A DNA stretch of 64,000 nt from Anaerolineae bacterium. Lineage in GTDB: Bacteria; Chloroflexota; Anaerolineae; JAFGEY01. Below the pieces are notes generated by a model. The model was not told where the DNA came from. It saw only the letters and a program-made list of their open reading frames with translations, and ran no database searches. Position numbers and translations under genes: made by a program. The stretch is from the NCBI GenBank assembly GCA_016783145.1, contig JADHXD010000003.1, forward strand, positions 1 through 64,000. The letters are read 5' to 3'. This document shows, one piece after another, positions 29,232-42,853 of this stretch (within the stretch, counting starts at the first letter, position 1; each line of letters opens with the position of its first letter).

Positions 29232-31532
29232 TCAGGTCTGCCGGCGGAAAAGCACTCCGTCGCGCGTTCGCATGAACAGAACCGGTATGCCCCAGTCCAT
29301 CACGTTCAGGTCGGTGGCAAACATCACCGCTTTGCGCCCTTCAGCCACAGCGGCATCAACCGGCCAACCATCGGCCAGAGTCCGGTAGAACTCGCCGGCA
29401 AAGATTGTAGCACTATGCTCAGAAATAGCAAATTGCATAGCCAACGTGGCCGAAAGACCAGCGCGCATAAGCTGTCCGGCGATGCTCCTGCCCGTCGCCC
29501 CGTGGGCGGTCATGCAGGCGTTCAGCACGGTGAGGCGGATGGTTGTATCGCGCAGCATATAGTGCAACTGTGTGGCCGAGACGGGATGCGGCTCGCCCTC
29601 CTCATCTTCCAGGACCAACATCCCCGTACGCGCGCGATCGTCGTATGCCCCGTGGCCGATGTAGTGCAGTACGTGAAAGGGACGGCGTGACATGGCCTGC
29701 AAGCTGCGTACGGTCGCGTGATCCAGGACCTCGATCTCGACCTTGCCCACGTGCTGGAGATAGTCCATGGCCTGGATGATCTGCGCCAGCTCGGCTTCCA
29801 CGTCGATCGGGTCCTGATCGGCCGGTTCGGCACTGACCAGCAGAATGCGCAGCGGCGAGTCGAATGCCAGCGGCGGCGGCTCCTGCTGGCGAGGGTCTGT
29901 GTACCTGGTGATTGGCGTCCGTGGGGATAGGGCTGGGAATGTCTGCGACTCGGGATCGTACAGATATTCCCACGGCAGATCCATCAGGTCGGGAGCCTCG
30001 ATGTTCAGCTTGAATCGAATCCCTCTGTGGTTCCCAGCCTCGGCCTGGCAGGCCTGGTACCACTGCTCGGTCTCTGGAGAGCTAAAGAGGGCCTGCCACA
30101 GGATCGTGCCCAGGGTGTGCAGATCGTCATAGTGGACCTGGCCCTTCTCCATCCGTTTCACGATCGCCCTCAACGCCGGAGACCCGATATCCAGCGCCAT
30201 TTGGCCGCTTCCGGTTCCCTTGCACGAATCGACTGCGATCGGAAAGGAGCCTCTTCTGCCGGATCTCGGAGAGATATGCAGGCCAAAGTCCAGGTAGTTC
30301 CTGGGATCCACGGCAGGAGGCAGGGGCAACACGTTCATCGCCCGTGCCGGTGACCTGTAGGCGCTCGCATCGGGGGCCGGCTCGTCGGCCGGGACGCTGG
30401 AAGATGAGAGCGGCACCACAGCGCCCACGGGCATGGCCTCAAAGTACTGGCGGAAGGCGCGCTCATAGATCCGATTGCGTACGGCACACCACGAACGTTC
30501 GCGCTCGACCCCGTCCACCGCCTCGACCGATCTGTCGCGCCGGAGGGCACCGATCACAAACAGGCGCGCCACGCGTGGATCGATGATGCTAAACGGTACG
30601 CTCTGGTTATCGATCATCATCTGGCGCAGGAGATAGGCGGCCTGGGGATACTTCCTGAGCTGGAGCGTCACGTACCTCAGGTTCTCGTCGCCCTCATACA
30701 TGCGATCGCTCGCTCGATCCACTTCTCCAGTGGTGATCCGCTTGAGCGAGGATCGTTCCCGGTGGCAAATGGCCTCGATCAAAGCACAGATCCGTTGGGT
30801 CAGGTAGGGGTGGCCCCCGGCGTGGTGCTGCACGTACTGCGGTACGCCCGGGTCTACCGGTCGGACCCGCTCCAGGTTCCGAACCAGTCGCTCGGTGCCC
30901 GCAAGGCAAAAGTCGGTCAAGTAAAGGGGCCTGCACACGTTGGCCAGCGGAGAAGTATGCCCGGTGGTCAGTTCATGCAGGTCAACCGCACCGGAGAATA
31001 CAAAGAGGTACTTTTTGAACGCGTGCTCCGAGTCGTGCACGCTGCTGGACGAGATGCTCCGCAGCGTCTCAAAGAACCCCATGTTGGAGATGAATGAGCC
31101 GACCTCGTCGAGGAGGATGACGATCCGCGTGCCGCGACAGTGACGCGCCAGGTCGAGCATGAACTCTCGAAAGCGGACCGGGCCATCCACAGCGCTGGCT
31201 ACAGCGCGCAGCTTGCCCGGGGTGATCAGCGTCTCCAGCAGCTCTTCGCGGATCTTGAGCGCAGCATGCGCATAGTTCTGCGCCACGCTGTTCACGCGAT
31301 AGGCCGAGAGATCCAGAAACGCGACCGGTTCTCCTTCCCGCTTTAGCTCACGGTACAGGCGATACAACAGCGTGGTCTTGCCCGTCTGGCGGGATCCCAG
31401 CAGAGCCACATAGTTCTGCACATATGGCCTGTGCACCTCGCGGAGGATGTCTTGCAGCTCTGGCCGCTCGACATAGATCGACTGATCCTGGTCAAAGTCC
31501 AGCGGCCCGGTGGTCTTGAACATCGGATTCAT
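29232..31532 (-). CDS. AAA-like (AAA_35-type) ATPase fused to C-terminal CHAT caspase-like domain
   Basis: 'VALLGSRQTGKTTLLYRLYRELK', 'IVILLDEVGSF'; CHAT 'LMDLPWEYLYDPE', 'HVLHYIGHGAYDD', 'LTVLNACMTAHGA'. ATG at 31532 gives an ATGA overlap with the upstream gene. Confidence 0.85.
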   Translation of the reverse strand: MNPMFKTTGPLDFDQDQSIYVERPELQDILREVHRPYVQNYVALLGSRQTGKTTLLYRLYRELKREGEPVAFLDLSAYRVNSVAQNYAHAALKIREELLETLITPGKLRAVASAVDGPVRFREFMLDLARHCRGTRIVILLDEVGSFISNMGFFETLRSISSSSVHDSEHAFKKYLFVFSGAVDLHELTTGHTSPLANVCRPLYLTDFCLAGTERLVRNLERVRPVDPGVPQYVQHHAGGHPYLTQRICALIEAICHRERSSLKRITTGEVDRASDRMYEGDENLRYVTLQLRKYPQAAYLLRQMMIDNQSVPFSIIDPRVARLFVIGALRRDRSVEAVDGVERERSWCAVRNRIYERAFRQYFEAMPVGAVVPLSSSSVPADEPAPDASAYRSPARAMNVLPLPPAVDPRNYLDFGLHISPRSGRRGSFPIAVDSCKGTGSGQMALDIGSPALRAIVKRMEKGQVHYDDLHTLGTILWQALFSSPETEQWYQACQAEAGNHRGIRFKLNIEAPDLMDLPWEYLYDPESQTFPALSPRTPITRYTDPRQQEPPPLAFDSPLRILLVSAEPADQDPIDVEAELAQIIQAMDYLQHVGKVEIEVLDHATVRSLQAMSRRPFHVLHYIGHGAYDDRARTGMLVLEDEEGEPHPVSATQLHYMLRDTTIRLTVLNACMTAHGATGRSIAGQLMRAGLSATLAMQFAISEHSATIFAGEFYRTLADGWPVDAAVAEGRKAVMFATDLNVMDWGIPVLFMRTRDGVLFRRQT

Positions 31533-33475
31533 GATAGCCCCCAATATCCCGGTGCTGCTTGCTCTCCCATTTGATGTCGCAAACTGGTGAGCAGGACATC
31601 GACCTCCTGGCTTTCCTGCACGACCTCGGGGAAAGCGCCGCTCGCAAACCGATACTGCTGCCCTTCTTTGAGCAAGATGCTGTACAGCCGAAGCCCGGCA
31701 ATGGCCGCTTCCAGAGCTTCCTGGGGCACCGCGAACCCGTGTTGGGTCAATTCCTCCTGGATGTCGCCAAAGGATACCTTTTCCCTGTCAGCGATCAGCA
31801 GCGTGATCACTTGCTCGAGAGCGCTGGTGTTCCCCCACGTGACCTCCAAAAAGTACTCGTGGAAACTGCTCGAATGGCGTACTTTATTCAGGTCAGCCGG
31901 GGTGATCTGCCGCGTGTGCCGCGCATTGGCCTCCAGGATGAGCTGCTGGCACAGGTACTGAACGAGGTTCGGATGGCACGAAGAGAGGTTGATGATCTCG
32001 TAAACGACCTCTTCCTGATCCTGGATGGAAACGCCCATCGCTTGCATGGGTTCAAGGATGATCCGCCTGGCGGCGTGTTCCCTGAGATAGCCCAGGTGGA
32101 TGACGTCACAGAAGTTGAACAGGGGCGAATGAGCTGCGTGTAGCTGGTTGTGCAGCACCCGCTCTCCGCAGAAAACAAACCGGCAGTGTCGCTCCTGAGA
32201 CATGGCGCGAAACAGGCCGAACAACGTCCCATCTCCATGCTCCAGGTCGTAGCTCAACAGGGCATCCACTTCGTCCAGGAGAACGACGACGGGCTCGTCT
32301 GCATTCTCCTCCCTCTGGTAGACGACGTAGCGGCGAAAGTCCTCAGCCGAACGGATCAGCGGATGCACTCTCCAGATCGTGGTCGCCGCCTCAAAGAACG
32401 CCTCCGGGGTTTTCACCGACTGGCAGTCCAGGTAGAGAATGCTGCTGCGGGCTACGCTCTCTGACAACAGGCGGTATACCTTGGCCAGGATCGAGGTCTT
32501 GCCGATCTTGCGCCCGCCGATGAGGGCGAAACTGGTGTCATTGATCTTGCGAGTGATGGTCTTGAGCTCGTGGTCTCGGCCAAAGAACATGTTTGCGGGG
32601 ACGGGACCGGATGTGACGTAGGGAGAGACGACGGTCAGGTCCACCTGCTGCAGCACGATCTCGACCAGCCGTTTGCCTGGATCCCTCGCGATGATGATCT
32701 GTCGCAGATCGTTCCCATTCAGAACGATAAAGTCGTGGATCGTGTCGCGCACGAGGTTCTTGAGGTTCTTGCGCGGGTCGAGGTGAACCGCAAAGTCGTT
32801 GAGATCGATGATCAGCGCAAAATAGCTGGTCATCGAGAGGATGCTCATCAGGCTGTGCAGATCGGTCAGGTCTTCTGGAGAACCTTCGTGGCGCCGCACA
32901 AAGACAACGGGGAAACGAGGAGGCACTTTGAGACGCAGCGCTGGGGCCCGGACGACGAATCCGTGCAAGCGACGGTACGTGCGCTGCTCTTCGGGTACGT
33001 GGACGAACCCCAGGATGTCAAAGAGTTGGGTGGCGATATTCGAAACGACGCTGTGGAAATTCTCTTCGGCATCGACCAGTTCCCACGCTGCCTTCCAACT
33101 GTGAAGGAAGGTCTTCATACGCAGGCGGTTCACCAACTCGATGCGCGGCAGGCTGTCGTAGAAGACGAGCGCGTCCTCGGGGTGCTCTTCGACGTACCTG
33201 CGCATGGTCGCCACCCACAGAGGCGGCGGAACGGAGGACAGGAAATACTCGTCCACCCACCCGTGCTGCATCAGCGCGTTGCGGATGCTCGTCTCCCAGG
33301 CCGGCCATCTATCCTCGGCCGAAGAAGCGGCGAGGTTTGAAACCGGGCCCGCCCCTGCTCGGCCCTTTGCACCAGACCTTCGCCTGCCGATCACGATCCA
33401 CGCGATCGCCGCGACCGCGATGGCAACAGCGCCAATGACGCCCCAAAGCCCTCGTTCGTTCAATGCCCCCCCCAA
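31529..33475 (-). CDS. Membrane-anchored STAND-like P-loop ATPase
   Basis: N-terminal TM 'WGVIGAVAIAVAAIAWIVIG', 'FFGRDHELKTITRKINDTSFALIGGRKIGKTSILAKVYRLL', 'VVVLLDEVDALL'; TTG start at 33475 preceded by AGGAGG. Confidence 0.8.
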   Translation of the reverse strand: MGGALNERGLWGVIGAVAIAVAAIAWIVIGRRRSGAKGRAGAGPVSNLAASSAEDRWPAWETSIRNALMQHGWVDEYFLSSVPPPLWVATMRRYVEEHPEDALVFYDSLPRIELVNRLRMKTFLHSWKAAWELVDAEENFHSVVSNIATQLFDILGFVHVPEEQRTYRRLHGFVVRAPALRLKVPPRFPVVFVRRHEGSPEDLTDLHSLMSILSMTSYFALIIDLNDFAVHLDPRKNLKNLVRDTIHDFIVLNGNDLRQIIIARDPGKRLVEIVLQQVDLTVVSPYVTSGPVPANMFFGRDHELKTITRKINDTSFALIGGRKIGKTSILAKVYRLLSESVARSSILYLDCQSVKTPEAFFEAATTIWRVHPLIRSAEDFRRYVVYQREENADEPVVVLLDEVDALLSYDLEHGDGTLFGLFRAMSQERHCRFVFCGERVLHNQLHAAHSPLFNFCDVIHLGYLREHAARRIILEPMQAMGVSIQDQEEVVYEIINLSSCHPNLVQYLCQQLILEANARHTRQITPADLNKVRHSSSFHEYFLEVTWGNTSALEQVITLLIADREKVSFGDIQEELTQHGFAVPQEALEAAIAGLRLYSILLKEGQQYRFASGAFPEVVQESQEVDVLLTSLRHQMGEQAAPGYWGLS

Positions 33476-33544
33476 GATCCTTCCCTCCTGCAATCCGTAG
33501 AGGTACGGTATGATGTGGTCGGTGTATCGTGGCGTTCGAGCCCT

Positions 33545-33591: not shown

Positions 33592-33620
33592 TTGACAAAA
33601 TCCGCGTTATGAGGGATAAT
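33592..33620 (+). promoter_or_regulatory. Sigma70 promoter of an orphan small transcription unit
   Basis: TTGACA-17-GATAAT. Confidence 0.75.
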
Positions 33621-33823: not shown

Positions 33824-36223
33824 TCACGATTCGCCATCGTAGCGCGGCAGCGCAACCCCGAGCATACTGCCTTCCCCTGGTGCGCTCTCTAGCCAGACAC
33901 GACCCCCGTGTCGTTCGACGATGCTCTTGACGATCGCCAGCCCGAGCCCCGTCCCCTGGACGCTCTCTGCGAGTTCATTGCGGCCTCGGAAAAAGCGATC
34001 AAAGACGTAGGGTTGGTCTTCCGGAGCGATGCCGATCCCGGTATCCCTGACCCGGAGGACGGCTTCCTGCCCCTCAAGAGCCACACACACGGCAACCCGC
34101 CCCCCCGCTGCGGTGTACTTTATCGCGTTGCTGAGCAGGTTATCGATGACCTGCCAAAGCCGCCCGAGGTTTCCAAGGACCAGGAGGTTCTCCTGCGGCA
34201 CGTCCACGTCGAGAACGAGTCCCCGTTCCTCAACCTGGTCGCGCCAGGTATCCGCTGAACGGGTCACGACGCCCCCCAGATCGCAGGGGGTCATCTCCAG
34301 CTCGATGTCTGCTTCCAGGCCTGCCAGATCCAGCAAGCCACTGGTCAGGTCCAGCAGTCGTGTGAGCTCCTGCCGGGCATTTGCCGCAAAATCCTGCTGC
34401 TGCTCGTTGAGCGGCCCGACCTGCTCGATCGCGTCCAAGAGGCTGTAGACCGTGCTCAGCGGGGACCGTAGATCGTGCGAAACTGCGGCCACAAACTCGG
34501 ACTTCATCTCGGACAGTTCCTTGATGCTCGTGACATCCTGCATCACCGTGACCAGACCGATTCCCGGAATCGGCGTCACCGAGACACTGAACGCGCGATC
34601 CCGATCCACGACGATCTCGCCGTAACCGATCTGCCCGCTGCTCTGGGCCTGATCGAGCAGCGTGGATAGGCTGGGATGGCCGATGAGCTCAGCGAGAAGC
34701 ATGCCAGTGCCCCTGGTTCGACCGGTGCCAAAGACTCGATGCGCCGCAGCATTCATCAGCACCACCCTGTCGTCTACGTCCGTGACGATCACCGGCTGCT
34801 CGATGCCGCGAATCACAGCCTCCAGCTTGGTCTGCTCCGCCTTAACCTGGTGGAACAGCCGGGCATTCTCGATCGCAGCCGCTGCATGCACCGCAAGCGC
34901 GGTCCACATCGCCCGGTGGGTTTCAGTGAACTTTGTCTCTGAGTCACGGTGGTCCCCATAGATCGCGCCTATCGGGCCAGAGGCACCCGTGATCGGCACA
35001 CAGATCGCTGCTCGTGGCTCGAAACCCGTTCCGTCCTCGATGCGTGTGCGCTCGACGATGGTCAGGATGGGCTCTCCCTCTTCGACCACGCGCTGGACAA
35101 TGCGGCGCGCAAACCGGAATTCGGGAGCATCCAGCGTCTCCGGGGCAAGCCCGCGGATCACCCGGTGAGCCGTCTCCTGCCTCCCCTCTCCGAGCAGCAC
35201 CAGGAATCCTCGCTCCGCGCCCACGATGTGAATAGCCACTTCCACGACCCTATCCAGGATCAGATCCAGGCGCAGCGTCGAGGAAAAGGTCGCGCCGATC
35301 TGCGAGATCGTCGTGCGCTCTATCTCGTTTTCGATCTCGGCGTGCAGGCCGATGTTCTCCAGCGCGATCGTTCCATAGCTAGCCAGGATCGCAAGCTTGT
35401 CGAGGTCGTCCTGCGAAAAAGGATGCGCATGCGCCAGTCGGGCGACGCGCAGCACACCAATGGGCCGCTCGCTGCTGCAGAGGGGCATATACGCCAACGC
35501 AGAGGCGGTGCCACCCTTCGTCGCGGCTCCCGAGGCAGGAAGGACCTGCGGAGAGCCACTCTCCAGGGCAAGCTGCACCATCGGATCCTGAACCGCCCGG
35601 TTGAGGGCACGAGCATGCTGCTGCCCCGCACTCAACCGGGAACGGATGTAGACCATCCCCACGTCGGGGTCCTGGAGGAATATGCCGCCGTCGTCCGCGT
35701 TCGTGACAAAGACCGCCGCCTCGACCAAACGATTCAGGACCTGTTGGCGATCGGGCTCGGAGATCATCGTCTGCCCGATAGCATAGAACGTCTTTTGCTC
35801 CAGAACCTGCCGCTGAAGCCGCTGCCCCAGGCGATCTCGCTCTCTGCGCAGCCGGGGTTCCTCCAAGGCCTGCTCTACCGCCGCCAACACCTCCTCTTCG
35901 ACAAGCGGCTCGCATACGCACGCCCTGACCCCGAGATGAAGGGCTCGCAAGACCGCTTCTGCCCTGTCCTGCGGTGCATAGATCAGCACAGGGAGGATGT
36001 GTCCGCGTTCCCGCAGCGATTCGAGGACCTGGATGTCAGAGAAACCGCAGCACCCCAGGCCCAGGATGAGCAGGTCGGGGTGAGCGTCACGGGCTCTCTG
36101 AACCGCACCCTCGGCCCTCTCCTCCTCCAGCGTTCGGTAGCCACGGGGCACCAGCACGCGGTCAACGATAAACCTGCGCGGCGCACACCGATCATCCACG
36201 ACCAAGACCAGTTCGTCCGCCAA
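33824..36223 (-). CDS. Pseudo-REC - GAF - GAF - PAS - histidine kinase
   Basis: HisKA 'FVAAVSHDLRSPLSTVYSLLDAIEQ', HATPase 'VRDTGIGIAPED', 'GTGLGLAIVKSIVERHGG'; N-terminal receiver fold lacking the phospho-Asp. Confidence 0.88.
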   Translation of the reverse strand: MADELVLVVDDRCAPRRFIVDRVLVPRGYRTLEEERAEGAVQRARDAHPDLLILGLGCCGFSDIQVLESLRERGHILPVLIYAPQDRAEAVLRALHLGVRACVCEPLVEEEVLAAVEQALEEPRLRRERDRLGQRLQRQVLEQKTFYAIGQTMISEPDRQQVLNRLVEAAVFVTNADDGGIFLQDPDVGMVYIRSRLSAGQQHARALNRAVQDPMVQLALESGSPQVLPASGAATKGGTASALAYMPLCSSERPIGVLRVARLAHAHPFSQDDLDKLAILASYGTIALENIGLHAEIENEIERTTISQIGATFSSTLRLDLILDRVVEVAIHIVGAERGFLVLLGEGRQETAHRVIRGLAPETLDAPEFRFARRIVQRVVEEGEPILTIVERTRIEDGTGFEPRAAICVPITGASGPIGAIYGDHRDSETKFTETHRAMWTALAVHAAAAIENARLFHQVKAEQTKLEAVIRGIEQPVIVTDVDDRVVLMNAAAHRVFGTGRTRGTGMLLAELIGHPSLSTLLDQAQSSGQIGYGEIVVDRDRAFSVSVTPIPGIGLVTVMQDVTSIKELSEMKSEFVAAVSHDLRSPLSTVYSLLDAIEQVGPLNEQQQDFAANARQELTRLLDLTSGLLDLAGLEADIELEMTPCDLGGVVTRSADTWRDQVEERGLVLDVDVPQENLLVLGNLGRLWQVIDNLLSNAIKYTAAGGRVAVCVALEGQEAVLRVRDTGIGIAPEDQPYVFDRFFRGRNELAESVQGTGLGLAIVKSIVERHGGRVWLESAPGEGSMLGVALPRYDGES

Positions 36224-36517: not shown

Positions 36518-36632
36518 AATGCAGACATCCTGAAGCGCCTTTGTCCAGGCGGCAAGTCCCTTGGAAGGTCTTTTGCAGGCCACCGTAGGGCACGATTCCA
36601 TTCGTGCCGGCTGCGACCGAGCAAGCCCTCTG

Positions 36633-36778
36633 CGAGGATCTACGCCCGCCGGTGTCGCACAGGCCCCCTTCGAGGATCTACGCGCGCCGGTGTCGCACAG
36701 GCCCCCTTCGAGGATCTACGCGCGCCGGTGTCGCACAGGCCCCCTTCGAGGATCTACGCGCGCCGGTGTCGCACAGGC
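36633..36778. repeat. 38-bp tandem repeat, about 3.8 copies
   Basis: Unit cgaggatctacgcgcgccggtgtcgcacaggccccctt starting at 36633, 36671, 36709 and 36747. Confidence 0.92.
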
Positions 36779-37130
36779 GAGCCGCTTGCCCTGTCCCGTC
36801 TGGGCCAGGACGGGGTTCTACGGTCCAGAGAGCCGCTTGCACAACTTCTGCAAATTCGTCGATCTGTGGTACAATCGGCTATCTGCGCCGCTTGCCACGG
36901 CGCTCGCCTCCGGTACGAGCGGCGCAAGCGTATGGAAAGCGACATCCAGCCGTCCGGTTTGGTAAGGAAAACGCGAGTACAGTAGTCAGGATAGCGAAGG
37001 CGTGTACGAGGGCCATGCGGGTGCCCACCAGGAGAGAGCGGAGAACACCGTCAGCCGGGCGCTGTGTCCGATCGCGACGGGCAGTGCCCGTCGACCCTCC
37101 GGGTCTGTACGTGCAGAGGATTAGCGCTGA

Positions 37131-38298: not shown

Positions 38299-39006
38299 GT
38301 GGAGTACCCGCCTACGGATCTATCCAGGAGGTCCGCCACGATCGTATACGACATCCAGCACTTGACCAAGGCGTATGCCGGGCAGACACGCCCGGCCAAC
38401 AAGGACATCACCCTGCAGATCGATCAGGGTGAGATCTTTGGGCTGCTGGGGGAGAACGGAGCGGGCAAGACAACGCTGGTCCGACAGATGGTCAATCTGC
38501 TGCGCAGCACCTCGGGCAGCATTGTCCTGTTCGGAAAGCCGATCGACCAGGATGCCCTCCACGTCCCGCTGAATGTCGGATACATGCCCCAGGAAACGCA
38601 CGCCCTGAACGTGCTCACGGTGGGCGAGGCCCTCTTTTTCACCGCACACTTCCATCTGAACCCAATCTTCTTCCTGGTCATGCCTCTATGTGCCGTCTCC
38701 CTGTCGGGCATCGGCGCGCTGATCGGCGTGCGCGCGCGCACTCCGCAAGAGGCCGATGCGCTGAACCTGTTCCTCACGTTGGTCATGGCCGGCCTTGGGC
38801 CAGTGGTGATCCCTCCCGATCGCCTGCCGCGCATCCTGCTGGTGCTGGGGCGCTTCAGCCCGGCGACCTATGCCGCATCCGCCTTCCGGCAGGCACTGCT
38901 CGGCCCCCTTACCGGACAGATCCTCGTGGACCTTGGCGTCTTGACGGCGATGTCGGCCGCCGTGTTTTGGCTGGTAGGGCGCAAGATGGACTGGCGGCAA
39001 CACTGA
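38299..39006 (+). pseudogene. Chimeric ABC transporter remnant: ATPase N-half fused in frame to ABC-2 permease C-half
   Basis: 'GLLGENGAGKTTLVRQMVNLLRSTSGSIVLFG...GYMPQETHALNVLTVGEALFFTAHF' then hydrophobic 'LNPIFFLVMPLCAVSLSGIGALIG...'; no signature motif or Walker B. Confidence 0.7.
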
Positions 39007-39208
39007 GATCGCTGTGCTCGGCACAGAACTCGCGCGGCTAAATCTGCGTCTAGCGGCAAATATCTGGAATACCGAAAGATACTCTAAATCAGATAGACCA
39101 GTTGCTCGTTCTTTGGTCTCCCCTGCATTCAGTGGTATAATTCCTTTAGAACAATTGTTTGGAAACCCCGTTCTGATTTCCGTCGCCACGCACCTGGGGA
39201 GCACGTTG

Positions 39209-42200
39209 ATGTCCAACTTTGTACATCTGCACATTCATAGCGAGTTCTCGCTGCTCGATGGCTTGAGCCGGGTCAGCGACCTGGCCAAGCGAGCCAAAGA
39301 GCTGAAGATGCCGGCCATTGCCCTCACCGATCACGGGGTGATGTACGGCATCATCGACTTTGTGCGTGCCTGCAGGGATGAGGGTGTCAAGCCGATCGCC
39401 GGCATCGAGATCTATATCGCTCCCAGGCGAATGACGGATCGCGACCCGCAGAAAGACAGAAATCCGTATCACCTGGTGCTGCTGGCTGAGAACCAAACCG
39501 GCTACCAGAACCTGCTTCAGATCGCCACGGCTGCGCAGTTGGAGGGCTTTTACTACAAGCCGCGCGTCGATAAGCCTTTTCTGGCAAAGCATGCGGAGGG
39601 CATCATTGCCCTGAGTTCGTGCAATTCTGGCGAGATCCCACGTCACATCCTGGATGGCAACCTGAAACGGGCGAAACGGGCTGCGCAGTGGTACCGCGAG
39701 ACCTTTGGCCCGGACAGCTTTTTCATCGAGATCCAGAACCATGAAGGGATACCAGAAACCGCAGAACTGAACCGGGGCCTGGTCGCTCTGGCGCGCGAGC
39801 TAGACATCGGCTTGGTGGCTACCAATGACGCACACTATGTGCGCGCAGAGGACGCCGACGCCCAAGACATCCTGCTCTGCATTCAGACCGGCAAGGTGCG
39901 AGCCGACCCAGAGCGGATGCGGATGACAGACAGCGGCTACTATGTCAAGACCGCCGAGGAAATGGCCGCTCTCTTTCCAGAGTGGCCAGACGCCCTAGAG
40001 AACACCGTGCGCATCGCGGCGCGCTGCGAGGTAAAAGTCGAGAGTGACGAATACCACCTGCCCGTCTTTCCTGTACCCGACGGGCATACCCCAGAGACTT
40101 ATCTGCGAGAGCTGACCGAAGAGGGGTTCCGCAGAAGGTATCCCGAAGCCGACGAGGAGCTGCGGCGGCGCCTTGACTATGAGCTGGCCGTGATCCACGA
40201 TATGGGCTTTGACACCTACTTTCTCATCCTCTGGGACCTGTGCGAGTATGCGATCGAGCATGACATCTGGTGGAACGTGCGTGGCTCAGGCACGGGCTCG
40301 GTGGTCGCCTATTCGTTGGGCATCACCCGCCTTGACCCGCTGTCACAAGATCTGATCTTTGAGCGCTTTCTCAACCCCGAGCGGGTGACCATGCCGGACG
40401 TGGACCTCGACTATCCCGACGATCGCCGCCAGGAACTCATCGACTATACACGAGCCAAGTACGGCGTCGACAAGGTCGCCAATATCATCACCTTTGGAAC
40501 GCTCGGTGCGCGTGCCGCTGTGCGCGATGTAGGGCGCACCCTGGACATCCCGCTCAACGAAGTAGACCAGGTCGCCAAGCTGGTGCCCAGCGGCCCCAAG
40601 GTGCACCTCAAAGACGCCTTTGACGGCTCCGAGTTCAGGACACTGTACGATTCGCAGGCTTACATCCGCGAATGGATCGACATGGCGTCCAAGGTGGAGG
40701 GCATCGCCCGACACGCCAGCGTCCACGCAGCAGGCATCGTCATCACCGACAAGCCGATGGTTGAGTACATCCCCCTGGCGCGTGCGCCCAAGGGGGACTC
40801 AGATATGGCTGTCACCCAATTCCCGATGACCGTCGTGGAGAGCATCGGACTGCTCAAGCTCGACTTTTTGGGCCTGGCCACACTGACCCAGATGCGCAAG
40901 GCGGCGGAACTGATCGAGGCCCGGCACGGCGTTCAGTACACCCTCGACGATATCCCCACAGACGATCCGTGTATCTTTGATCTGTTGACCAACGGAGAGG
41001 TCGTGGGCGTGTTCCAGGTCGAGAGCGGCGGGATGAAAAAGACACTGGCTCAGATGCGCCCCACCTCCCTGGAAGACATCATCGCCGTTGTCTCCCTCTA
41101 TCGCCCCGGGCCTATGCAGTTCATCGACACGTACTGCAGGCGGAAACATGGCGAGGAAGAGATCGAGTACATTCACCCGGCCCTGGAACCGATCCTCAAC
41201 GAGACCTACGGGGTGATTGTCTACCAGGAACAGATTATCCGCATTATGCGAGACCTGGCCGGCTATTCTGGCGGCCAGGCCGATGTGATCCGCCGCGCCA
41301 TCTCCAAGAAATACGACAAACTCATCGCCGAGCACCGGATCAAGTTCAGGGAAGGCTGCGAAACGAACCACATCCCGGGCAACAAGGCCGACGAGATCTA
41401 TGCTTCGATCGAGTACTTTGCGAACTATGGTTTCAACAAGGCGCATGCGGCAGACTATGCGGTGATCACCTGCCAAACCGCCTACCTCAAAGCCAAGTAC
41501 CCGGTAGAGTATATGACGGCCCTGCTTACCGTGGAAAAAGACAACACGGACAAAGTCTCGGTATTCCTATCCGAGTGCCGTCGCCTGGGGATTGCCATCC
41601 TGCCGCCCGACGTCAATGCCAGCGATGTGGACTTTACGATCGAAGAGGCCCCGCCAGACCAGCAAGCACGACATCACGTCGAGAGCGTGTGCGCCGTCGG
41701 CAGCGGCGCGATCCGCTTTGGGCTGGGTGGGATCAAGAACGTCAGCGCGACGGCGGTAGAAGAGATCATCCGGGCTCGCGATCAGGGAGGGCGGTTCGTC
41801 AGCCTGGACGATTTCTGCGAGCGCGTCGATCTGCGTCGCATCAACCGCCGGATGCTAGAATGCATGATCAAAGTGGGAGCCTTGGATCAGTTCGGTGCGC
41901 GCGTCCAGCTTCTAGCCGCCCTGGACCAGATGCTGTCCATCAGCGCTCAGGTTCACCAGGCACAAGAAGTGGGCCAGTTGATGATGTTTGACATGCTGCG
42001 CGACGAGGACAGAAACGGCCAGGGCAGCATTGTACTTCCGGAAGAGGCTCCGATCTCGCGCAAAGAGATGTTGAACTGGGAGAAAGAGCTGGTCGGCTTT
42101 TACGTCTCCGAGCACCCACTGAACCAGGTCGCCGTCGATCTGCAGAACACGGTTTCTTGTTTCTGCGGCGAGATCACCGAAGAGATGAACGGTCAGACCG

Positions 42201-42853
42201 TGGTCGTTGCTGGCATCGTGGAGTGGGTTCGCCCTCACGTCACCAAAAAGGGAGACCCGATGGCTTTCGTACACCTCGAAGACATCCAGGGCAGTATCGA
42301 GGTCGTCGTGTTTCCACGCATCTATGCAGCCACGCGCGATCTGTGGCAGCCGGACAAGATCCTCATCGTCCGAGGCAGAGTGGATGGAGCAAGTCGAGAA
42401 CCCAAGATCCTCTGCGAGTCGGCCCAAGACTATGTGATGATCGCCCGGCCGGTCGAGCAGGAGCATTCTTCTCCGGCTGCAGGACCCCACGCGCAGGCTG
42501 TGCAGGAAGGCGCGCTGCCGTACTCCTCAAGCGCCGATGAGGTGCCCGGACATGTGCCAGTCGAAGCAAACGGAGCCAATGGCTCCAGAGGCAATGGATC
42601 CGACCAGCCCGCCCAACGACATCTCTACATCAGCATCCAGCGAACGGGCAATCAGGAACAAGACAAGCGACAAGTGGGCGAGGTATACAGTCTGCTGGAG
42701 CGCTATCCCGGCGATGACCGGTTTACCTTCTTTGTGCTCAACGGCAATCAGCAGGTCCAGATCGATTTTCCAAACGCGACGACCAGCTATACCTATGAAC
42801 TGGTCCAGTCCCTCAGGGCGATGCTCGGCCGGGACGCGCTGCAACTGAGCTGA
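39209..42853 (+). CDS. dnaE: DNA polymerase III subunit alpha
   Basis: PHP 'FVHLHIHSEFSLLDGLSRV', 'PDVDLDYPDDRRQELIDYTRAKYG', 'GVFQVESGGMKKTLAQMRP', OB fold 'VVVAGIVEWVRPHVTKKGDPMAFVHLED'. Start at ATG 39209. Confidence 0.97.
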   Translation: MSNFVHLHIHSEFSLLDGLSRVSDLAKRAKELKMPAIALTDHGVMYGIIDFVRACRDEGVKPIAGIEIYIAPRRMTDRDPQKDRNPYHLVLLAENQTGYQNLLQIATAAQLEGFYYKPRVDKPFLAKHAEGIIALSSCNSGEIPRHILDGNLKRAKRAAQWYRETFGPDSFFIEIQNHEGIPETAELNRGLVALARELDIGLVATNDAHYVRAEDADAQDILLCIQTGKVRADPERMRMTDSGYYVKTAEEMAALFPEWPDALENTVRIAARCEVKVESDEYHLPVFPVPDGHTPETYLRELTEEGFRRRYPEADEELRRRLDYELAVIHDMGFDTYFLILWDLCEYAIEHDIWWNVRGSGTGSVVAYSLGITRLDPLSQDLIFERFLNPERVTMPDVDLDYPDDRRQELIDYTRAKYGVDKVANIITFGTLGARAAVRDVGRTLDIPLNEVDQVAKLVPSGPKVHLKDAFDGSEFRTLYDSQAYIREWIDMASKVEGIARHASVHAAGIVITDKPMVEYIPLARAPKGDSDMAVTQFPMTVVESIGLLKLDFLGLATLTQMRKAAELIEARHGVQYTLDDIPTDDPCIFDLLTNGEVVGVFQVESGGMKKTLAQMRPTSLEDIIAVVSLYRPGPMQFIDTYCRRKHGEEEIEYIHPALEPILNETYGVIVYQEQIIRIMRDLAGYSGGQADVIRRAISKKYDKLIAEHRIKFREGCETNHIPGNKADEIYASIEYFANYGFNKAHAADYAVITCQTAYLKAKYPVEYMTALLTVEKDNTDKVSVFLSECRRLGIAILPPDVNASDVDFTIEEAPPDQQARHHVESVCAVGSGAIRFGLGGIKNVSATAVEEIIRARDQGGRFVSLDDFCERVDLRRINRRMLECMIKVGALDQFGARVQLLAALDQMLSISAQVHQAQEVGQLMMFDMLRDEDRNGQGSIVLPEEAPISRKEMLNWEKELVGFYVSEHPLNQVAVDLQNTVSCFCGEITEEMNGQTVVVAGIVEWVRPHVTKKGDPMAFVHLEDIQGSIEVVVFPRIYAATRDLWQPDKILIVRGRVDGASREPKILCESAQDYVMIARPVEQEHSSPAAGPHAQAVQEGALPYSSSADEVPGHVPVEANGANGSRGNGSDQPAQRHLYISIQRTGNQEQDKRQVGEVYSLLERYPGDDRFTFFVLNGNQQVQIDFPNATTSYTYELVQSLRAMLGRDALQLS

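Follow-up and report, generated by a model that had tools for sequence, protein, structure and literature searches.

Two adjacent STAND-like NTPases with an exchangeable output domain, here a predicted CHAT protease, as a putative membrane-anchored relay in Anaerolineae

The nSTAND2 two-gene counter-invader operon (Kaur et al. 2021, eLife, PMC8195603, Fig. 6C) encodes two products that both possess a STAND NTPase core, the effector-bearing NTPase having eroded motifs and the effectors being mostly GT4 or HEPN (PMC8195603). In the EACC1-caspase membrane two-gene system (Kaur et al. 2020, eLife, PMC7159879, System 4) the first gene has one transmembrane (TM) helix, EACC1 being a short TM domain without an NTPase, and the caspase is the constant part (PMC7159879). 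CHAT domains are found in HetF, a cyanobacterial CHAT-TM-TPR protein of the divisome and of differentiation (PMC8406250), and in Csx29 (catalytic dyad H585/C627; PMC9729208). Here we report on a two-gene locus located in a 64,000-nt stretch (hereafter the window) of contig JADHXD010000003.1 from an Anaerolineae bacterium (a 4.98-Mb draft genome, G000, and the sole member of its order among the compared genomes), in which gene A (protein P0001) encodes a membrane protein with an NTPase and gene B (P0002) a second NTPase fused to a CHAT domain. We lean towards the view that this locus forms a chromosomal, membrane-anchored relay of two STAND NTPases with an exchangeable effector, which in this case would be a protease.

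Judged by its domains, the relay resembles published two-gene STAND conflict systems without corresponding to any tested member. Like the nSTAND2 operon, it is a two-gene operon with STAND-like NTPase cores in both products and a variable effector on one of them; unlike that operon, it has both NTPases intact (the Walker motifs of gene B are invariant in 25 sequences, with GKT and DE retained), and its effector is CHAT here and TIR-like, TM or caspase in relatives. Membership in nSTAND2 was considered and rejected: PF20702 matched neither P0001 nor P0002 at E ≤ 0.1 and had no hit in the window genome. With the EACC1-caspase system the locus shares a two-gene organization, a TM helix on the first gene and a caspase-superfamily peptidase on the second, but in the present locus it is the peptidase that is swapped and the NTPases that stay constant: gene A carries an NTPase in place of an EACC1 domain, and the CHAT domain is C-terminal and replaced in relatives, unlike the N-terminal, constant caspase. 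HetF likewise has a homologous CHAT domain (E-value 1.6e-21) and takes part in membrane-linked signalling in a filamentous bacterium, yet it is a single protein without an NTPase, and its equivalog model (NF045509) scores gene B at 76.4 bits against a cut-off of 1200. The His-Cys dyad is also shared with the CRISPR proteases Csx29/TPR-CHAT and SAVED-CHAT (spacing of 46 residues between His627 and Cys673 here vs 42 in Csx29); in contrast to these, the window proteins have no SAVED or TPR domain by Pfam, no CRISPR-type gene occurs among the window neighbours examined, and we propose activation by the partner NTPase instead of by target RNA or a cyclic nucleotide. Within the searched literature collection we found no description of a dnaE-linked, propeller-bearing gene A or of its effector replacement.

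The evidence for the relay comes chiefly from the conservation of the pair. Searching the proteins of 397 genomes from the class (many of them fragmented drafts, absence calls in incomplete genomes being soft), we recovered long homologues of gene A in 33 (E < 1e-70). In 22 loci from 10 families the gene next after gene A encodes a gene B NTPase, mostly in overlapping or abutting arrangement: the window (family f1), f39 (n=11), f6 and f7 (n=2 each), and f12, f14, f3, f54, f45 and f71 (n=1 each), the f54 locus ending at a contig edge and the f71 one lying outside the class. The trees of the two genes agree in their pairwise distances with r = 0.957 (20 linked pairs), a value that is also raised by shared ancestry alone, and Walker A and Walker B are kept in every aligned copy of both NTPases. 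The window gene A (59-61% identical to the f6 copies) is firmly placed as sister to f6 (support 100/97). Gene A was single-copy in the 16 genomes where its family profile found it, and a search of genome contigs returned one gene A relative.

Around this constant pair, the output end of gene B varies between CHAT, TIR-like, TM-beta-TM, caspase and nearly nothing, and we therefore consider that the effector is exchanged and that what stays constant is the two NTPases together (output domains named by Pfam being predictions). In f6 (L066 and L067), the closest relatives by gene A, gene B ends in a TIR-like domain which, scanned alone, scored 26.4 and 27.7 bits, respectively (Pfam cut-off 24.7). 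The f39 and f7 copies end in one or, mostly, two TM helices around an apparently beta-rich stretch, the L138 copy in a caspase (Peptidase_C14, 1.2e-22), and the L101 copy has almost nothing after the NTPase. The f36 genomes also join CHAT to the gene B family of NTPases, though in the reverse order (CHAT N-terminal), and the fused gene lies apart from gene A; grouping the C-terminal CHAT of the window and the N-terminal one of f36 as one clade gave p = 0.37 in the approximately unbiased (AU) test. An earlier reading of the DNA (hereafter the sequence-only reading) had asked whether the two genes co-occur, which the 22 adjacent loci and the correlated trees answer in the affirmative; it had also treated the CHAT protease as the core of the system, an emphasis that needs correction, since CHAT is one of several exchangeable outputs and it is the NTPase pair that is conserved.

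Arrangements of related design were observed elsewhere. In f42 (L196, L198, L199, L200) the gene B-like NTPases have a conserved C-terminal domain (RANCIDG...GHAFVGW...ETT); it resembles a transglutaminase-like cysteine peptidase by eye only, and Pfam and PDB profiles gave no support. A separate, more distant two-gene family of the same design and class (L143, L145, L147, L149-L152, L155) has a first gene for an NTPase of ~505-530 aa, overlapping or abutting the gene for a second NTPase that is fused to SpoIIE phosphatase or GAF-histidine-kinase modules. Adjacent AAA_35 pairs in which the first gene has an N-terminal CHAT or CHAT-TIR occur in L161, L172 (f71) and L204 (Tolypothrix plasmid NZ_CP050444.1), the second gene of L161 also bearing a CHAT domain. 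The pair from the Tolypothrix PCC 7910 plasmid (CHAT-AAA_35 followed by AAA_35-GUN4) and L172 are like the window locus in having adjacent NTPase genes, one of them with CHAT, and the CHAT region of P0002 is 33.5% identical to that of Tolypothrix; they differ in that window gene A is not AAA_35 by Pfam, that its N-terminal cytosolic domain is unmatched there, and that the Tolypothrix pair is plasmid-borne with CHAT at the N-terminus of the first gene. Such AAA_35/CHAT pairs, which occur in cyanobacteria, probably belong to the Npun2340/2341 STAND family that PMC8195603 places in the MNS clade.

Both frames of the window (coordinates in Table 1) extend far beyond chance: the 648 open codons of gene A compare with a mean longest run of 138 (maximum 283) in 200 shuffles of gene A. 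The third-position GC content (0.76 in both frames), together with the full-length conservation in other genomes, establishes the two as real genes. Although the mechanical open reading frame (ORF) of gene A extends up to a TTG at 33598, its start was set at the TTG at 33475 (stop 31529) because of the AGGAGG ribosome-binding site. The protein has a single hydrophobic helix with arginines on its C-terminal side, from which the positive-inside rule predicts that the NTPase is cytosolic. AAA_22 matches the latter with 33.0 bits (cut-off 27), and nSTAND1 remains just under its cut-off (26.2 vs 27.1 bits) in the window while exceeding it in the L072 relative (1.8e-10, 41.4 bits). Among 26 aligned homologues the hhGRxxE, GxxxxGKTS and hhDE motifs show little or no variation, so that gene A displays the N-terminal hhGRxxE, Walker A and Walker B expected of a STAND NTPase. 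Furthermore, the gene A family profile matched Cdc6 (1.3e-7) and P0001 matched the Orc1/Cdc6 NCBIfam model (2.2e-5). One could hence regard gene A as a nucleic-acid-handling ORC/Cdc6-like ATPase of a replication operon with CHAT as a passive scaffold, the more so as gene A lies behind dnaE in relatives and STAND NTPases have been argued to descend from ORC/CDC6-like nucleic-acid binders (PMC8195603). We hold this to be improbable, given that the Cdc6 match is limited to the P-loop core common to STAND/AAA+ proteins, that gene A is membrane-anchored and bears a sortilin/BNR propeller in relatives, and that the CHAT dyad is strictly kept.

Gene B has the AAA_35 domain (PF14516) at aa 14-313 (43.2 bits, cut-off 27) and, behind it, a CHAT domain scoring 90.7 bits (cut-off 24). 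Across 30 distinct CHAT homologues (33-44% identity), as well as in an alignment of 22 CHAT sequences, His627 and Cys673 align and do not vary; moreover, a profile of the 22 sequences matched the solved CHAT protein 8tl0 (3.2e-21), whose H355 and C402 fall in register with them. Gene B thus carries the His-Cys dyad of the CHAT peptidase family and may act as a protease. Two CHAT-like places have lost both residues, namely the second gene of L161 and a stretch of the window genome itself (L002/L003, contig C154, about 13.9-15.6 kb). In these respects the sequence-only reading proved sound: it had described the first gene, from TTG 33475, as a STAND-type P-loop ATPase with one TM helix, and the second, starting on the ATGA overlap at 31532, as a P-loop ATPase with a C-terminal CHAT domain, and it had named YIGHGAY and LNACMTA as the positions of the dyad.

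Table 1. Features of the two-gene locus and its dnaE context (window coordinates)
Feature	Position	Strand	Remarks
Gene A (P0001)	31529..33475	minus	648 aa, TTG start; single-pass membrane protein with predicted cytosolic STAND/ORC-like NTPase
AGGAGG ribosome-binding site of gene A	33484..33489	minus	from sequence
Predicted TM helix of gene A, aa 12-30	33386..33442	minus	hydropathy 2.53 over 19 aa
Predicted cytosolic linker domain of gene A, aa 50-280	32636..33328	minus	no Pfam match; conserved in relatives
NTPase and C-terminal region of gene A, aa 281-648	31532..32635	minus	AAA_22 8.3e-8; family-profile Cdc6 match 1.3e-7
Walker A of gene A, GGRKIGKTS, aa 320-328 (Lys326)	32492..32518	minus	G-K-T-S invariant, 26 sequences
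Gene B (P0002)	29232..31532	minus	766 aa, ATG start; AAA_35/STAND-like NTPase and C-terminal CHAT protease domain (predicted)
ATGA stop/start overlap, gene A to gene B	31529..31532	minus	couples the two genes
NTPase region of gene B, aa 1-380	30393..31532	minus	AAA_35 2.9e-11; family alignment
Walker A of gene B, GSRQTGKTT, aa 46-54 (Lys52)	31371..31397	minus	motif alignment
CHAT domain of gene B, aa 478-739	29316..30101	minus	PF12770 1.5e-25
Predicted catalytic His627 (YIGHGAY) of CHAT dyad	29652..29654	minus	invariant, 30 homologues
Predicted catalytic Cys673 (LNACMTA) of CHAT dyad	29514..29516	minus	invariant, 30 homologues
dnaE (DNA polymerase III alpha)	39014..42853	plus	context; 5.4 kb from gene A, opposite strand

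As for sensing, the relatives of gene A are mostly proteins of ~1,270 aa, made up of a hydrophobic segment at the N-terminus, a sortilin/BNR propeller (Sortilin-Vps10 in L072, 2.2e-29), a TM helix and the cytosolic part, the propeller being presumably extracytoplasmic. It is absent from gene A of the window, of f6 and of L084. A propeller hidden by a mis-called start was ruled out, as the whole open frame of gene A comprises only 704 codons, and a search of the window genome for a separate propeller gene that could supply the ectodomain gave one sub-threshold sortilin match only (contig C86). The view of gene A as a membrane-anchored sensor accordingly stands in part: the membrane-anchored, STAND-like NTPase is there, but the presumed extracytoplasmic sensor of most relatives is not. 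The 5' modules of gene A vary as well, with TIR_2 in L138 (8.6e-17) and EAD7 in L142 (7.5e-20); EAD7 adaptor domains are familiar from published conflict systems.

The setting of the locus is core chromosomal and not that of a mobile island. In all 11 of the f36, f42 and f7 loci with upstream sequence, gene A comes directly after a co-oriented dnaE; the spacing between them is -59 to +105 nt, depending on the ORF start, and they overlap by 4 nt in L079 and L083. In f6 and f39 the two genes lie on different contigs, and the dnaE at 5.4 kb in the window is plausibly a rearranged remnant of the linkage. The window neighbours comprise pfkA, a methyltransferase, shikimate-pathway genes, a GAF/PAS histidine kinase upstream, an ABC transporter and dnaE. 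Among ten of them PADLOC reported only generic methyltransferase and ABC-ATPase similarity and no defence genes (its mad2/mad3/mad8 matches being an ordinary methyltransferase and an ABC ATPase), and no PADLOC family matched the pair as such. Furthermore, gene A had no match in 72,556 plasmid and 50,697 phage records, and alignment scans of viral contigs returned none for gene A, none for CHAT and one relative of the gene B NTPase (25% identity). A defence island, which the sequence-only reading had proposed to look for, is thus not supported: the housekeeping neighbours, the PADLOC results and the lack of gene A in mobile collections argue against it, with the dnaE linkage of relatives pointing the same way. 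The broader suggestion of that reading, signal-triggered proteolysis or defence, may still hold.

These data bear on two readings of what the pair does. The first is a dedicated anti-phage abortive infection system, in which gene A would sense infection at the membrane and CHAT would kill the cell. CHAT, TIR and caspase outputs, along with the EAD7 or TIR domains that relatives carry on gene A, are stock components of published conflict systems (PMC8195603, PMC7159879), and the PADLOC SAVED_CHAT model weakly matches the CHAT part (3.8e-8); we nevertheless find this reading unlikely, in view of the missing defence neighbours, the lack of a fitting PADLOC family and of plasmid, phage or viral-contig homologues of gene A, its single-copy state and the dnaE linkage across families. 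The second, to which we give more weight as a tentative alternative, is a HetF-like, housekeeping form of regulated proteolysis, in which a non-lethal relay would couple the state of the envelope to division, replication or filament development. The conserved place behind dnaE (including the 4-nt overlaps), the HetF match of the CHAT part (well under the equivalog cut-off) and the plain signalling outputs of the distant same-design family speak for it, but effector replacement (TIR-like, CHAT, TM module) would be unusual for a fixed pathway, caspase, TIR and EAD7 occur in relatives, and the dnaE link of gene A is missing in f6 and f39. Conflict is favoured by the identities of the effectors and regulation by the location and by the signalling outputs of the sister family, so that we see the chances of cell death or immunity on the one side and of reversible regulation on the other as near even.

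Within the two-STAND relay that we prefer, gene A would be the constant sensor and anchor NTPase and gene B the executor, with its own NTPase fused to the output domain. A membrane signal may switch the gene A NTPase, via the propeller in relatives and via the TM helix, the cytosolic domain or another protein in the window; gene A would then recruit, or co-assemble with, the gene B NTPase in an ATP-dependent complex, and clustering or the release of autoinhibition could set His627 and Cys673 in register, upon which CHAT would cleave a cellular substrate. The domains, the Walker motifs in both NTPases, the dyad, the overlap, the pairing and the effector replacement are read from the sequences, and from them we infer the hetero-assembly, the ATP-driven activation, the proteolysis and the membrane topology.

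A number of observations weigh against this relay. The AlphaFold models of the gene A cytosolic part (mean pLDDT 40.8) and of the CHAT domain (single-sequence; mean pLDDT 37.8) are unusable, and neither a signal nor a substrate of the window pair was found, the lack of a substrate counting here. How a gene A without a propeller would sense is guesswork, and constitutes the least certain part of the model. The gene B NTPase of the window is unusually diverged and long-branched (36-42% identity to the f6, f39 and f7 copies), and in the gene B tree a clade of window and f6 was not rejected by the AU test (p = 0.138); because of the latter, a wholesale replacement of the window gene B from another lineage is not claimed. 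Moreover, genes A and B are not adjacent in f36 and f42, and in five f36 genomes (some of their assemblies incomplete) the CHAT-NTPase is present but no gene A was detected; gene B can therefore act without a linked gene A. The split loci, and the mere 33 nt that separate gene B from pfkA downstream, would also suit an explanation by chance neighbourhood or simple co-transcription with pfkA, devoid of functional coupling, but the 22 adjacent loci in 10 families and the congruence of the trees render this most improbable.

In a wider frame, and speculatively, the relay might be a vertically inherited bacterial counterpart of paired sensor/executor NLRs, in which a membrane-spanning propeller-TM-STAND receptor (encoded directly behind dnaE in several families) licenses a second STAND protein whose effector (TIR-like, CHAT, caspase or membrane module) was replaced over evolution around an unchanging NTPase pair; in Chloroflexota this would open a path from the envelope into the cytosol that leads to regulated proteolysis or cell death. 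Should the relay work as proposed, it would offer a tractable bacterial case of two cooperating, membrane-anchored STAND NTPases, with sensing and execution placed on separate proteins and a natural series of effectors on one scaffold, in which it could be asked whether the NTPase pair alone sets signal and assembly, the effector being a plug-in. The dnaE linkage in relatives suggests, in addition, that STAND-type signalling can occupy core chromosomal loci and not only mobile immunity.

Some further features of the surroundings were recorded. The histidine kinase (33824-36223) adjoins gene A upstream on the same strand and has GAF and PAS domains, while its N-terminus resembles a receiver domain but narrowly misses the Pfam cut-off; the corresponding slot is taken by a Ser/Thr kinase in f6 (L067) and f14 (L102), and by a FecR/zinc-ribbon protein in L066. 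Between this kinase and the next gene (~36560-36970) the window is repetitive, its frames giving repeated RAPVSHRPPSRIYARRCRTGPLRGST-like units. In the ORF at 38299-39006 an ABC ATPase breaks off after ~80 profile positions and passes straight into an ABC-2 membrane domain, which looks as if a deletion had fused two transporter genes.

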